Source: Chromatiales bacterium (GTDB lineage Bacteria; Pseudomonadota; Gammaproteobacteria; SpSt-1174). From it: 64,000 bases of DNA. The position numbers were made by a program, and so were the translations under genes. The first letter of the stretch is position 1. Each line of letters starts with the position of its first letter. Of this stretch, positions 50,828 through 55,889 are shown one piece after another. Below the pieces are notes generated by a model. The model saw nothing but the letters and a program-made list of their open reading frames with translations. It had not been told where the DNA came from and made no database searches. The stretch covers positions 1-64,000 of the forward strand of contig JABURS010000041.1 in assembly GCA_014762505.1 (NCBI GenBank). Reading direction: 5' to 3'.

Positions 50828-51724
50828 ATGGCCCATACCGCAGACGTTTCTTCCTTCAATGACCGCCTGGTCCATGTCGGGGAGCTCGACACCCCGGCAC
50901 TACAGGCCCTGCAGCGGCAGGCGGCCGATGCGGCCGGTCTGCCACCGGTCTTTCGTGACCGGCTGGACGATGGCGGCGAGGGGGTGCAGCTGTGCGTGAT
51001 TCCGGCCGGCAGCTTCGAGATGGGGTCGCCGCCGGAGGAGTTCGGTCACCGTCCGGAGGAGGGGCCGGTGCACTACGTGGCCCTGCAGCGCGCCTTTGCC
51101 CTGGGGCGCTTCACCATCACTGCCGACGAGTTCGCCGTCTTCCAGCGCGACAGCGGCTATCGCTTTCGTTCCGATCTCATCGTCGCCCGCGGCCGCCATC
51201 CGGTGATGAATATTCGCATCGCCGACGCGAAGCGTTATTGCGCCTGGCTCAGCGAGCGTACGGGACAGGTCTACCGTCTGCCCACCGAGGCGGAGTGGGA
51301 GTATGCCTGTCGGGCAGGCACGTCCACCCCCTTTCACTTTGGCGATTCGGTGACCTGCCGGGAAGTCCATTTCAATGCCACCTTTCCCTACAACGAGGCA
51401 CGTGAGAAGCGCCGCTGGTTCCTGCCTCGCTGCGTGCCCCTGCCCACCGCGCTGGAAGTGGGCAGCAAGCCGCCCAATGCCTGGGGGCTGCACGAGATGC
51501 ACGGCAACGTCTGGGAGTTCACGCAAAATCCCTGGACCACCTCGCATCTCGGTGCGCACCGTGATGGCACCGTGGGGAGCAGCCGGCATCGCGACTGGAT
51601 CGTGGTGAAGGGCGGCTCCTGGTTCGATGCCGCGGTCCTGGCCCGCTCCGCTGCCCGTCGTCCCCGGCTGCGTGACGAGATGGACGTGAACCTCGGTTTT
51701 CGCGTGCTGCGCGAACTCCCCTAG
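50828..51724 (+). CDS. SUMF1/FGE-like protein lacking catalytic cysteines
   Basis: The 298-residue protein has the formylglycine-generating-enzyme fold: IPAGSFEMGSPPEEFGHRPEEGP, RLPTEAEWEYACRAG, NAWGLHEMHGNVWEFTQNPW, VKGGSWFDAAVLARSAARR and GFRVLRELP. True FGE enzymes have two Cys near the C-terminal GGS/R region; here that region has none, so sulfatase activation is unlikely. Such FGE-like proteins often have binding or other oxidase roles. It is 20 bases upstream of the third diguanylate cyclase, likely the same operon. Confidence 0.82.
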   Translation: MAHTADVSSFNDRLVHVGELDTPALQALQRQAADAAGLPPVFRDRLDDGGEGVQLCVIPAGSFEMGSPPEEFGHRPEEGPVHYVALQRAFALGRFTITADEFAVFQRDSGYRFRSDLIVARGRHPVMNIRIADAKRYCAWLSERTGQVYRLPTEAEWEYACRAGTSTPFHFGDSVTCREVHFNATFPYNEAREKRRWFLPRCVPLPTALEVGSKPPNAWGLHEMHGNVWEFTQNPWTTSHLGAHRDGTVGSSRHRDWIVVKGGSWFDAAVLARSAARRPRLRDEMDVNLGFRVLRELP

Positions 51725-51744
51725 CCCCGGAAAGGACCGGCCGC

Positions 51745-52863
51745 ATGGAAGAGAATCTCAAGGAAACACGGCACCGCGAGCTCAAGGACGAGAATCGCCA
51801 GCTCAAGAGCCAGTTGCGCCAGCTCTGGGACCAGGCACGCGAGAACGAGCAGAAGCAGATGCGCATGCTCGAGATCGAGTCGCGACTGATCGGTGCCGAG
51901 GGCCTGCGGGCCCTGGTCGACGTCCTGTTCCACGACCTGCGCATGGCCAATGGCCTCGACATGATCGGCCTGGCGGTGGTGGACGAGGAAGAGGAGCTGC
52001 AGGCCCTGCTCGAGGAAGAGGGGGTCGAGATTCCGTCCACCCTGTTCCTGCTGGATGCGGCCGAGGCCGCCCACGCCCGGCTGTCGCGTTTCTATGTGGG
52101 TGCCTACGACCCGACCCTGCACAGCGACTGGTTCGGCGAGCTGCACGAGCTGCGTGGCGTGGCCCTGGTGCCGCTCAAGCGCGGCGACAAGCTGCTCGGG
52201 CGCCTGCACCTGGGTACCCGCGACCCAGCCCGTTACGCCGAGGGGGTGGGCACCTATTTCATCGAGCGCCTGGCGGCCGTCACCGCGGTGTGCATCGAAA
52301 ACGCCGTCAACATCCAGCGCCTCAAGCAGTTCGGCGTCACCGACACCCTCACCGGCATCAAGAACCGTCGGTATTTCGACCAGCGCCTGGTAGAGGAGGT
52401 GGCCCGTGCCCAGCGCGAGGACAGCCCGCTGGGCTGCCTGTTCGTCGATATCGACAAGTTCAAGCGCATCAACGACAACCTGGGACACCCCGTGGGCGAT
52501 GCCGTGATCGCGGAGACGGCCCGGCGCATCGCCTCGCAGCTGCGCAAATCCGATGTGCTGGCCCGCTACGGTGGCGAGGAGTTCGTGGTGCTGCTGCCGG
52601 CCATGGATGGGGGCGATTCCTGGGAGATCGCCGAGCGTATCCGCAGCGTGCTGGCCGCGGCCCCCGTCGGCTACCTGGTCGATGGCACCGCCGGCGGGCT
52701 CGCCGTGACCGTCTCGCTGGGCCTGGCCTGCGTCACGCCGCGCCGTGACAGCGACCCGCGGATCGTGGGCGAGTCGTTGCTGCGGCGTGCCGACGACGCC
52801 CTGCTCGCGGCCAAGGAGGGTGGCCGCAATCGCGTGGTGGCCTCCGACTGCACCGAGGCCTGA
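51745..52863 (+). CDS. diguanylate cyclase with coiled-coil/GAF-like sensor
   Basis: The 372-residue soluble protein starts with a coiled coil (about 1-45; ENLKETRHRELKDENRQLKS). A region of about 150 residues that looks like a GAF domain follows (DVLFHDLRMANGLDMIGLAV, LVPLKRGDKLLGRLHLGT). A GGDEF domain with GGEEF at 276-280 comes last. RKSD lies five residues upstream, so the I-site is present. Cyclic di-GMP synthesis in the cytoplasm is expected. The gene is downstream of the FGE-like gene and upstream of the membrane/VWA pair. Confidence 0.87.
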   Translation: MEENLKETRHRELKDENRQLKSQLRQLWDQARENEQKQMRMLEIESRLIGAEGLRALVDVLFHDLRMANGLDMIGLAVVDEEEELQALLEEEGVEIPSTLFLLDAAEAAHARLSRFYVGAYDPTLHSDWFGELHELRGVALVPLKRGDKLLGRLHLGTRDPARYAEGVGTYFIERLAAVTAVCIENAVNIQRLKQFGVTDTLTGIKNRRYFDQRLVEEVARAQREDSPLGCLFVDIDKFKRINDNLGHPVGDAVIAETARRIASQLRKSDVLARYGGEEFVVLLPAMDGGDSWEIAERIRSVLAAAPVGYLVDGTAGGLAVTVSLGLACVTPRRDSDPRIVGESLLRRADDALLAAKEGGRNRVVASDCTEA

Positions 52864-52880
52864 GCCGTTGGCGATGAACA

Positions 52881-53003
52881 CCGGTCCCCGGCCGCCCGTG
52901 GCTACCGGGGACCGGCGGCATGTGTGGGAAACGGGTAGCCCGTCACGGGACGGGAGGCAGGGGATGGGCTACTGTTGGCGCTGGGCAGTCCGACCGGGGG
53001 GAA
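52881..53003 (+). ncRNA. structured leader candidate
   Basis: A perfect 11-bp stem (CCGGTCCCCGG 52881-52891 with 52905-52915) is followed by two mutually exclusive pairings. GTAGCCC (52935-52941) can pair with GGGCTAC (52966-52972), or CCCGTC (52939-52944) with GACGGG (52949-52954). They share bases 52939-52941, as in a switch. No known riboswitch consensus, including either c-di-GMP class, is evident. Confidence 0.35.
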
Positions 53004-53103
53004 CAACCGGCGGGCGCTGCCGGGGCCCTGGTCCCGGCGTTCGACAAGAAGCAAGGAGCGGCGGCCGCCCGGTCGCCCATATGCCACCATTGTGAGGTTT
53101 CCA

Positions 53104-54636
53104 ATGACCTGGGAGCAGATCCTGACATTGTGGTCGGACAGCATCGCCCTGTCGGTGCTGATCTGGCTCGTGATTCTCATCACCCTGCTGTACCTGGCCC
53201 GTTCGCCGGCGCACGAGGCTCTGCTGGGGCTGGGTCGCGGCATCCAGCGCAGCCTGCGGCTGGCATCGCGTTCGGTGATGAAGGCCGAACAGCAGGCGCA
53301 GGCGCGCAACCGCGAAGTCCTGCTCAACATGGCCGAGGAGCAGCAGCAGCGTATCCTAGAGCGCGAGTTCCACCGCGTGAACGCAGTGGTGCGCCGTGAC
53401 CTCAGCGGTTATCCGGCCCTGCAGCGCCAGATCGGCAACCAGGTCGCCAAGATCGACGAGGACTATCGCGAATCCACCGAGGTGCCGCCCGCGCCGCCGG
53501 CCTGGCTGGATGCCGTGGAGGCGGTGGCGAAGATCCCCTCCAACGGCGATCCCACCGTGGCGCGCATCCTCGAGGACATCCACGGCACCCTGAACAAGGC
53601 CAGCCGCGATGCCATCGAGGAGTACCGCGCGGCCAGCCAGAAGCGCCACCTCTACCTCAAGCGCATGATGCCGCACTGGCGCCAGATCTCGAACCAGCTC
53701 GAGGACGTGGGCAAGACCATCACCGGCCTGGAGGAGCGGGCCGAGGTGATCGATACCCAGATGGAGCGTTTCGAGGAGATGCGTGCCAAGACCGACCGGG
53801 TGGTGAATACCCTCTCGGCCTCGGCCACCAAGCAGTTCTTCGTCGACGGCCTGGTCATGTTCATCGCCATCCTCGGCGGTGCGGTCAACTTCTGGCTCAT
53901 CCAGCGTCCGATGTCGGAGATGGTCGGGGCCAGCACCGGCATCAGCCTGCTGGGGCTGGACATGAACATCTCGCACATCGCCGCCATCGTGATCGTCGCC
54001 CTCGAGGTGGCGATGGGTATCTTCCTGATGGAGAGCCTGCGCATCACGCGGCTGTTCCCGGTGATCGGTTCCCTGGACGACCGCATGCGCCGGCGCATGA
54101 TCTGGGTGACCTTCACCATCCTCTTCATCCTCGCCTCCATCGAGTCGGGGCTGGCCTACATGCGCGATCTGCTCGCCCTGCAGGACGAGGCCCTCACCCA
54201 GGAGATCATCCAGAGCATGCGCGATGGGCCCGAGATCGTGGCCGGCGAGATCGCCGGAGCCCCGCCGTCCTTCCGCTGGATACCCTCGGTGGCGCAGATG
54301 ATCCTGGGTTTCATCCTGCCCTTCGCCCTGGCCTTCGTCGCGATACCGCTGGAGTCCTTCGTGCACTCGGCGCGCAACGTCTTCGGCCGTCTCTATGCCG
54401 CCGGCCTGCGCGCCCTGGCCGCCGTGCTGCGCTTCATCGGCCAGTTCCTGATGGGGCTCATGCGGGTGCTGGTGCAGCTGTATGACGTCATCGTGATCCT
54501 GCCGCTGTCCATCGAGCGCCTGGTGGCCCGACGCGGTGGCGGCGGGACATCCGCAGCGCCTGCGGCCACGCTGGCCACCGAGCGCGCCTCACCGCTGCTC
54601 TCGTCCGACAAGAACAACAAGGAAGGGAAGAAATGA
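53104..54636 (+). CDS. multi-pass membrane protein with long coiled coil
   Basis: I do not recognise the family. The 510-residue protein has membrane helix 1 at about 15-35 and a ~200-residue helical/coiled-coil domain (AEQQAQARNREVLLNMAEEQ, ITGLEERAEVIDTQMERFEE). Four to five more helices follow (about 242-264, 282-303, 325-347, 399-421, 445-480), then a polar tail. GAGGTTTCCA precedes the ATG at 53104. Its stop overlaps the VWA lipoprotein start by 4 bases (ATGA). The two probably form an envelope complex. Confidence 0.7.
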   Translation: MTWEQILTLWSDSIALSVLIWLVILITLLYLARSPAHEALLGLGRGIQRSLRLASRSVMKAEQQAQARNREVLLNMAEEQQQRILEREFHRVNAVVRRDLSGYPALQRQIGNQVAKIDEDYRESTEVPPAPPAWLDAVEAVAKIPSNGDPTVARILEDIHGTLNKASRDAIEEYRAASQKRHLYLKRMMPHWRQISNQLEDVGKTITGLEERAEVIDTQMERFEEMRAKTDRVVNTLSASATKQFFVDGLVMFIAILGGAVNFWLIQRPMSEMVGASTGISLLGLDMNISHIAAIVIVALEVAMGIFLMESLRITRLFPVIGSLDDRMRRRMIWVTFTILFILASIESGLAYMRDLLALQDEALTQEIIQSMRDGPEIVAGEIAGAPPSFRWIPSVAQMILGFILPFALAFVAIPLESFVHSARNVFGRLYAAGLRALAAVLRFIGQFLMGLMRVLVQLYDVIVILPLSIERLVARRGGGGTSAAPAATLATERASPLLSSDKNNKEGKK

Positions 54637-55304
54637 TGAAGGAATTCCGCAAGCGCAATGCCATTGCTGCCGTGGTCCTGGCGGGCCTGATCGTCCTGCT
54701 CGCGGGCTGCAGCATGCAGGCCAACGACCGCCGCGCCGTCTACCTGCTGCTGGACACCTCCGGTACCTACAGCCAGGAGATGCGCAAGGCCGATGCGATC
54801 CTCGCCCACCTGCTGAACACCCTGGGCAGTGGCGAGTCGCTCGCCGTGGCGCGCATCGACAGCGGCAGCTTCAGCGAGAAGGACATCCTCGCCAAGGCCA
54901 CCTTCGACGAGCGGCCCTCCATGGCCAACAGCCAGAAACTGGCCTTCCGCAGCCGCATGGAGGCCTTCTTCAAGGAACTGCAGCCCAGCCGCTTCACCGA
55001 CATCCGCGGCGGCATGCTGCAGGCCACCGAGTGGCTCGAGGAGACAGGCGCGGGGCACCGGTTCATCCTGCTGTTCACCGACCTCGAGGAGGACCTGCCG
55101 GAGGGACACGTGCGCGAGTTCATCATCCCGCTGGAGGGGGTGACGGTGGTGGCGCTCAACGTCACCAAGCTGCGCCAGGACAACGTCGACCCGCGCGAAT
55201 ATCTCGATCGCCTGGCGATGTGGGAAGGCGAGGTGGCCCGCGGCGGGGGCAACTGGCGGGTGATGAACGACCTGGAGCGGCTGGACAAGCTCCTGGTGGA
55301 CTAG
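54633..55304 (+). CDS. VWA-domain lipoprotein
   Basis: The 223-residue protein has lipobox LLAGC (Cys 26; Ser at +2 predicts outer-membrane sorting by the usual rule). A von Willebrand A-like domain follows. The MIDAS motif DTSGT (Asp 41, Ser 43, Thr 45) and a later LFTDLEEDLP are present, so it could bind a divalent metal and ligand. It is coupled to the membrane protein gene and followed by a strong bidirectional terminator. The function is unknown. Confidence 0.75.
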   Translation: MMKEFRKRNAIAAVVLAGLIVLLAGCSMQANDRRAVYLLLDTSGTYSQEMRKADAILAHLLNTLGSGESLAVARIDSGSFSEKDILAKATFDERPSMANSQKLAFRSRMEAFFKELQPSRFTDIRGGMLQATEWLEETGAGHRFILLFTDLEEDLPEGHVREFIIPLEGVTVVALNVTKLRQDNVDPREYLDRLAMWEGEVARGGGNWRVMNDLERLDKLLVD

Positions 55305-55324
55305 CAGTCGTCACGGCCGCCATG

Positions 55325-55352
55325 AAAAACGGCGCCCTCGGGCGCCGTTTTT
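55325..55352. terminator. bidirectional rho-independent terminator
   Basis: AAAAACGGCGCCC (55325-55337) pairs perfectly with GGGCGCCGTTTTT (55340-55352) across TC. The T and A runs serve both the VWA gene (plus) and fabA (minus). Confidence 0.9.
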
Positions 55353-55373
55353 CGTCATCTTCTGCCGCGGTCG

Positions 55374-55889
55374 TCAGAAGTTCTCGGTGGAGGTGAACAG
55401 GCCGACGCGCAGGTCCTTTGCGACATAGATCTCGCGTCCGTCCACCGACACGCTGCCATCGGCAATGCCCATGGTAAGCTTGCGGGTGATGACGCGCTTG
55501 AGGTCGATCTGGTAGCTGACCCGCTTCGCCGTGGGCAGCACCTGGCCGGTGAATTTCACCTCGCCCACCCCCAGGGCACGCCCGCGGCCCTTGCCGCCGG
55601 ACCAGCCCAGGAAGAAGCCCACCAGCTGCCACATGGCGTCGAGGCCCAGGCAGCCCGGCATCACCGGGTCGCCGGGAAAGTGGCACTCGAAGAACCAGAG
55701 GTCGGGCGTGATGTCGAGCTCGGCCTTGATCTCGCCCTTGCCGAACAACCCGCCTTCCTGCGCGATGTGGGTGATGCGGTCGAGCATCAGCATGTTGCCA
55801 ACGGGCAGCTGGGCATTGCCCGGACCGAACATCTCGCCGTGGCCACAGGCCAGTAGCTCGTCTTTGTTGAAGGCGTGTTGTGTCGTCAT
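55374..55889 (-). CDS. fabA: 3-hydroxydecanoyl-ACP dehydratase/isomerase FabA
   Basis: The 171-residue protein has the active-site His 70 ([11 protein letters not shown]) and Asp 84 (LGLDAMWQ) at exactly the E. coli positions. FabA dehydrates 3-hydroxyacyl-ACP and isomerises the C10 product to start unsaturated fatty acid synthesis in type II FAS. fabB, often adjacent, is not in this window. Confidence 0.95.

Follow-up and report, generated by a model that had tools for sequence, protein, structure and literature searches.

In animal integrins, VWA domains are the classical modules for adhesion and the sensing of force, and BatA/BatB and related VWA proteins belong to MoxR AAA+ operons. McaA, which places magnetosomes marked by McaB, has a VWA domain in the periplasm whose MIDAS is essential (PMC9512821). 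The VWA domain of alpha2delta docks on an external loop of CaV near an acidic residue (CaV1.1 D78/CaV2.2 D122), and Cachd1, a paralogue with a broken MIDAS, still works (PMC6231325). The FtsZl1 (Tubulin_2)/VWA membrane-remodelling loci of Makarova and Koonin encode VWA proteins in which the MIDAS is mostly intact (PMC2875224), and Bd0875 of Bdellovibrio is a MIDAS adhesin lipoprotein with a cap and extra domains (PMC11003981).

The window analyzed here, a stretch of 64,000 nucleotides that is part of contig 41 of a gammaproteobacterial genome of 2.77 Mb, contains a membrane protein gene and a VWA lipoprotein gene in direct succession. An initial annotation had combined these two genes with the preceding diguanylate cyclase (DGC) gene and a 240-base leader into a four-part envelope system. 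The features of the region are as follows.

50828-51724, + strand: gene of an FGE-sulfatase-domain protein (formylglycine-generating-enzyme type); probable operon partner of the DGC, outside the conserved unit
51745-52863, + strand: DGC gene (DUF484/GAF-like + GGDEF); strong GGDEF domain; a neighbor outside the conserved unit
52864-53103, + strand: intergenic region of 240 bases; probably the DGC 3' end and the promoter region of the pair
53104-54636, + strand: membrane protein gene, 510 aa (translation); the start codon agrees with homologs
53200-53784, + strand: coiled-coil arm, residues 33-227 (AF2)
53899-53973, + strand: periplasmic loop 1, residues 266-290, with E272; predicted VWA docking site
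54163-54282, + strand: periplasmic loop 2, residues 354-393, with R354 and W392; predicted VWA docking site
54633-54636, + strand: ATGA stop/start overlap coupling the membrane protein and VWA genes
54633-55304, + strand: VWA lipoprotein gene, 223 aa (translation); VWA fold by AF2/Foldseek
54708-54710, + strand: lipobox Cys26 in the signal peptide of the VWA lipoprotein
54753-54767, + strand: MIDAS D41-T-S43-G-T45 of the VWA lipoprotein
54996-55001, + strand: MIDAS T122-D123 of the VWA lipoprotein
55080-55082, + strand: MIDAS D150 of the VWA lipoprotein
55322-55355, + strand: terminator hairpin, perfect, -26.8 kcal/mol, z -6.6
55374-55889, - strand: fabA-like gene, convergent with the VWA gene, the terminator hairpin lying between both

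The DGC gene, the ATGA coupling at 54633 and the strong terminator at the end of the unit are all as the initial annotation had described them.

The lipoprotein shares the VWA fold with BatB (3ibs is among its Foldseek matches), but MoxR is not among the recurrent neighbors of the pair, unlike in the BatA/BatB operons. As in McaA/McaB, a periplasmic VWA domain with an intact MIDAS is coupled to a cytoplasmic part in a system of two proteins. However, in McaA a single chain holds the VWA domain, the transmembrane (TM) segment and the cytoplasmic part, and no lipoprotein nature is described for it; McaA/McaB, compared by described architecture only, have no coiled-coil partner with multiple TM segments (PMC9512821). 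Docking of the VWA domain on an external loop near an acidic residue is predicted for the pair, as in alpha2delta/CaV, whereas the latter is a eukaryotic channel with an unrelated membrane partner that lacks such a cytoplasmic arm (PMC6231325). The pair resembles the FtsZl1/VWA loci in being conserved and in combining VWA proteins with uncharacterized membrane proteins (PMC2875224). However, Tubulin_2 (PF13809) is absent from the window genome and from all pair-bearing genomes among the 232 searched, which excludes that membrane-remodelling system. With Bd0875 the lipoprotein has in common a signal peptide with a lipobox and a VWA domain with a MIDAS, but no obligate coiled-coil membrane partner is described for adhesins of this type in PMC11003981. 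No paper describing the pair was found in a literature search that left most subscription journals outside. A phage or plasmid origin was rejected because a tblastn search of the two collections gave no match, and a defence system was rejected as well, no PADLOC model having matched.

When GTDB species were scanned, each represented by a single genome, at least 435 pattern-matched loci with a relative of the membrane protein were obtained, and the best 80 of them were kept. The membrane protein occurs in Gammaproteobacteria, 'Deltaproteobacteria'/Desulfobacterota, Myxococcota, Nitrospirota and others. Among these best 80 of at least 435 loci, which represent several phyla, every one of the 79 for which enough sequence is available has the VWA gene immediately downstream, and in all testable loci the two genes show the ATGA overlap or a gap of less than 120 bases once over-extended ORF starts are taken into account. 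Among 232 genomes of the class, the membrane protein was found in 31 and the VWA protein in 29, with both present in 28 (p = 1e-31), and the sole partnerless VWA protein (in G136) is without signal peptide and first strand. VWA genes standing unlinked elsewhere, for which the initial annotation had allowed, are thus in the main not found. The unit consists of two genes, for the membrane protein and the VWA lipoprotein, that are inseparable in nearly all genomes.

Of the four parts proposed to occur together, the cyclase and the leader do not belong to this unit. In none of the 80 loci (again the best of at least 435) is the pair next to a GGDEF gene. In the sister genus (G002), the pairing of FGE-type gene and DGC is kept, and an opposite-strand dihydroorotase-like gene sits between the DGC and the membrane protein gene. 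Because of this missing adjacency and the gene order in the sister genus, the unit is limited to two genes, the cyclase goes with its upstream FGE neighbor, and the DGC was rejected as a component. The FGE-type gene, on which the initial annotation was silent, ends 20 bases before the DGC. The DGC itself is probably active, since it has GGEEF and, at the usual I-site spacing upstream, RxxD, as read from its sequence. The Pfam scan recognized neither PilZ nor any other known c-di-GMP receptor domain in the two proteins of the pair; with no GGDEF linkage in the 80 loci either, the proposed control by c-di-GMP could not be upheld.

The same applies to the leader, which had been called switch-like on account of competing stems. 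Its minimum free energy (MFE) is -124.8 kcal/mol against -119.4 (sd 4.9) for shuffled sequences (z -1.11), and 31 of the 200 shuffles fold at least equally well. At a G+C content of 71%, any stretch has competing stems. An Rfam search gave chance-level matches only, far under the gathering scores, and no riboswitch family, and the leader has no similar counterpart among relatives. A riboswitch was therefore rejected on folding, Rfam and conservation alike. A strong 11-pair hairpin at about 52881-52914, just 3' of the DGC stop, is as compatible with a transcript end as with a switch and may serve to terminate or protect the DGC transcript; the region 52864-53103 is probably made up of the DGC 3' end and the pair's promoter region. 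In favor of a unit of four parts under c-di-GMP control, with a leader resembling a riboswitch, are the one-strand adjacency of the genes in this genome and the FGE-DGC genes that are also nearby in the sister genus. Given the lack of any adjacent GGDEF gene in the 80 loci, the opposite-strand gene of the sister genus and a leader whose structure is at chance level, outside Rfam and unconserved, we regard such a unit as very improbable.

The membrane protein could not be assigned in the initial annotation, and searches of Pfam, NCBIfam, PADLOC and PHROGs likewise gave no family, nor was there a significant fold match in the PDB. As judged from these searches, it is an undescribed family. In an AF2 model based on 67 sequences (mean pLDDT 84.5), TM1 (residues 14-32) is followed by helix 33-124 (92 residues), which runs out, and helix 150-227, which runs back, so that the two form an antiparallel coiled-coil hairpin and bear out the coiled coil of about 200 residues noticed earlier. 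The tip of this arm is conserved, with Y103-P104 and PP-x-PP-x-W (P129, P132, W134). TM2-TM5 and a long C-terminal helix (413-478, 66 residues) come after the arm. Six membrane helices had been counted in the initial annotation; five TM segments are clear from AF2 and the TM/charge profile, and a sixth may lie within the long hydrophobic C-terminal helix. The region after TM1 has 5.3 K+R versus 0.2 D+E, and residues 312-332 have 5.0 versus 1.8. Because of this excess of K+R, the positive-inside rule would place the coil in the cytoplasm and loops 266-290 and 354-393 outside. Two further matches were set aside. A PDB sequence match to angiotensin receptor chains (1.8e-4) was read as an artefact of TM composition because it covers a single segment (residues 301-396) and does not recur in the fold search, and L012 (in G011) is a chance coiled-coil match to an apparently RpoN-like protein.

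The VWA fold of the lipoprotein is predicted by AF2 with a pLDDT of 91.3, and Foldseek matched it with a probability of 1.00 to CLCA1, ITIH1, CMG2, integrin I domains and BatB. All of the MIDAS residues (D41, S43, T45, T122, D123 and D150) are present and near-invariant, and the lipobox Cys26 is found in 56 of 56 lipoproteins. The intact MIDAS and the lipoprotein nature reported earlier are thus confirmed, except that the third MIDAS position is Thr in 55 of the 56, which makes the motif DxSxT and not DxSxS. Residue +2 after the Cys is other than Asp in 53 of the 56, and the lipoprotein is predicted to go to the outer membrane in most species; in the other 3 an Asp could hold it in the inner membrane.

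In the order to which G069 and G186 belong, as in a small number of further genomes, the VWA gene is missing or degenerate. A genome-wide search detected no VWA protein elsewhere in these loss genomes, apart from three in which an intact VWA-linked copy is present as well. On a tree of residues 14-245 (the coil only), the 'lost' label needs six changes, at least four of which are forced by well-supported branches, and by this tree the VWA protein is lost independently at least four times. When 87 distinct membrane proteins with a VWA partner (VWA-plus) and 20 that had lost it were compared, residue 272 was acidic in 86 of the 87 (Glu 85, Asp 1, with Ala in one lineage, L123, whose VWA is intact), and residue 354 was Arg in 87/87. 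Among the VWA-lost homologs, an acidic residue 272 and R354 were each found in 3/20, whereas the arm and its tip were kept even here. In three recent losses with well-kept coils (L114, L138 and L141), 130 of 150 conserved coil positions are retained versus 8 of 45 loop positions. The two-copy genomes G240 and G244 have E272 and R354 in the VWA-linked copy and neither residue in the other, but in G289 both copies, including the one without VWA, keep them. The contrast between coil and loops is strongest in L114, L138 and L141 and less marked where the loss is old. Positions in TM2-TM4 erode too, so that the effect extends beyond the loops.

These patterns suggest that the loops very probably dock a VWA-type partner, although loss of any periplasmic partner that disappeared together with the VWA protein could also erode them. 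Lineages in which the secreted partner has neither MIDAS nor lipobox keep E272 and R354 in 7/7 cases; E272 is accordingly not simply a metal ligand, and its role as a direct ligand of the MIDAS metal, also at odds with the Ala of L123, was downgraded. We read the same lineages as suggesting that docking of the VWA type does not need the MIDAS, and MIDAS-degenerate lineages of the pair may still work, like Cachd1 (PMC6231325). The persistence of the arm in turn can be read as a sign that it works at least partly without the VWA partner, and since the membrane protein survives VWA loss, its core function need not be VWA sensing. The acidic residue at the docking loop recalls CaV1.1 D78/CaV2.2 D122 (PMC6231325), and the membrane protein might by analogy be a channel or transporter, with the VWA lipoprotein as an auxiliary subunit on its outer loops as alpha2delta is on CaV. 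The best fold matches, to MscK and TTYH, point the same way. However, these are not significant (E 0.06-0.3, best 0.059; TM 0.10-0.14, 0.12 for the best), so that channel homology through them was rejected, and the conservation of E272 opposite MIDAS-less partners also speaks against this role, which we hold to be improbable.

The recurrent neighbors of the pair include no candidate for a universal cytoplasmic partner and are lineage-specific: kinase/regulator, fliA-cheB, an M23 peptidase, DUF3568/SH3/CysQ, and a Prc-like protease (by eye). In 26 of the 80 loci (the best of at least 435), the pair has as its neighbor a gene for a response regulator, a histidine kinase or both, in almost every case upstream and in divergent orientation. 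The kinase combines an HATPase domain with two hydrophobic stretches at the N terminus that a short segment separates. It occurs in 7 of the 232 genomes, each of which has the membrane protein (7/7, p = 4e-7), on the same contig as the pair and within about 8 kb of it, and it is still linked in loci whose gene order has changed (L072, G054 and G047). This linkage supports a functional connection to the pair, as output or regulator, in one large gammaproteobacterial clade. As the kinase is absent from most pair-bearing genomes, a two-component output would not be general.

An envelope-spanning module for signalling or mechanical coupling, the kind of function originally proposed, is still the best reading of the pair. 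It seems somewhat probable that the VWA lipoprotein binds to the periplasmic loops and from there relays the state of the envelope to the cytoplasmic arm. From the features above we infer signalling by the pair, its topology, direct docking, the direction of signalling and the identity of signal and output. The membrane protein would lie in the inner membrane with a periplasmic N terminus and two short periplasmic loops, and its antiparallel coiled-coil hairpin of about 200 residues would project into the cytoplasm. The VWA domain would dock on both loops through contacts including E272 and R354. Sensing of a ligand, a metal or a mechanical state by the VWA domain would then alter the membrane domain, which would pass the change on to the arm, and the conserved arm tip (YP...PPxPPxW) would contact a cytoplasmic partner. 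In one large gammaproteobacterial group, the dedicated histidine kinase/response regulator would be the likely output or regulator.

The long rigid arm with its conserved tip, the constant one-to-one pairing and the lack of a universal signalling neighbor would also suit a tether or scaffold, which fixes the distance between inner and outer membranes or positions something along the envelope without any signal. In this role the cytoplasmic arm would anchor an internal structure, and a parallel is offered by McaA, whose periplasmic VWA domain, with its essential MIDAS, serves to place McaB-marked magnetosomes (PMC9512821). However, a passive tether would not be expected to have the dedicated histidine kinase/response regulator seen in a large clade, and we think this explanation unlikely. 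As to the proposed relay, it is conceivable, if rather doubtful, that the pair represents a new trans-envelope type widespread in Gram-negatives, in which an integrin-like lipoprotein sits on a polytopic inner-membrane protein that passes ligand or tension on to the cytoplasmic coiled-coil arm, and in which the outputs are exchangeable, being a dedicated kinase in some lineages and others elsewhere. It would then be a bacterial outside-to-inside receptor homologous to no known one.

In short, the membrane protein exists in at least 435 loci of the GTDB set, yet has neither a family name nor a model, and together with its VWA lipoprotein it probably forms a hitherto undescribed device for linkage or signalling across the cell envelope. 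In these bacteria the pairing is obligate, a docking site is predicted and losses have occurred naturally, which makes outside-to-inside communication by VWA domains directly testable.

Among the 232 genomes of the class searched, a histidine kinase/response regulator family was restricted to those possessing the membrane protein and VWA lipoprotein gene pair. It was recognized at the following loci (L-numbers denote genome loci with relatives of the pair):

L039, 7227-8846 (-), histidine kinase/response regulator family
L036, 2788-3594 (-), same family
about 24 more loci, same family

The histidine kinase of this family has a conserved EVRHNG box and gave no HisKA match, and the response regulator carries the motif LDAxMNG.

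Other neighbors of the pair are lineage-specific. In one clade (L032, L052, L059, L073, L081, L091 and L093), cheB-fliA lies directly upstream of the pair and a DUF1249 gene and a SPOR/Sel1 gene lie downstream; the pair is located there at the end of a chemotaxis/flagellar cluster. In the lineage with a degenerate partner (L117, L175, L176 and L177), a gene assigned by eye only as a putative Prc/tail-specific protease is located just 5' of the membrane protein gene. In the window, the FGE-sulfatase-domain gene and the DUF484-GGDEF cyclase gene (together 50828-52863) are separated by 20 bases, and this pairing is retained in the sister genus.

The lipoprotein itself varies among lineages:

L139, L140, L142-L144, L153 and L147 (one order), secreted partner protein
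L118, 7283-7933 (-), VWA relative, the sole one found lacking the membrane protein

In the former, the lipoprotein has lost its lipid anchor and its MIDAS and is now secreted; its gene retains the position directly 3' of the membrane protein gene. The L118 relative, in which the signal peptide and first strand are absent, is probably a remnant. The VWA genes of one sub-lineage (L010, L124, L135 and L137) encode Asp, Glu or Asn at the third position of the MIDAS (DISSDY, DISGEY, DISENY), and these substitutions point to altered metal use.
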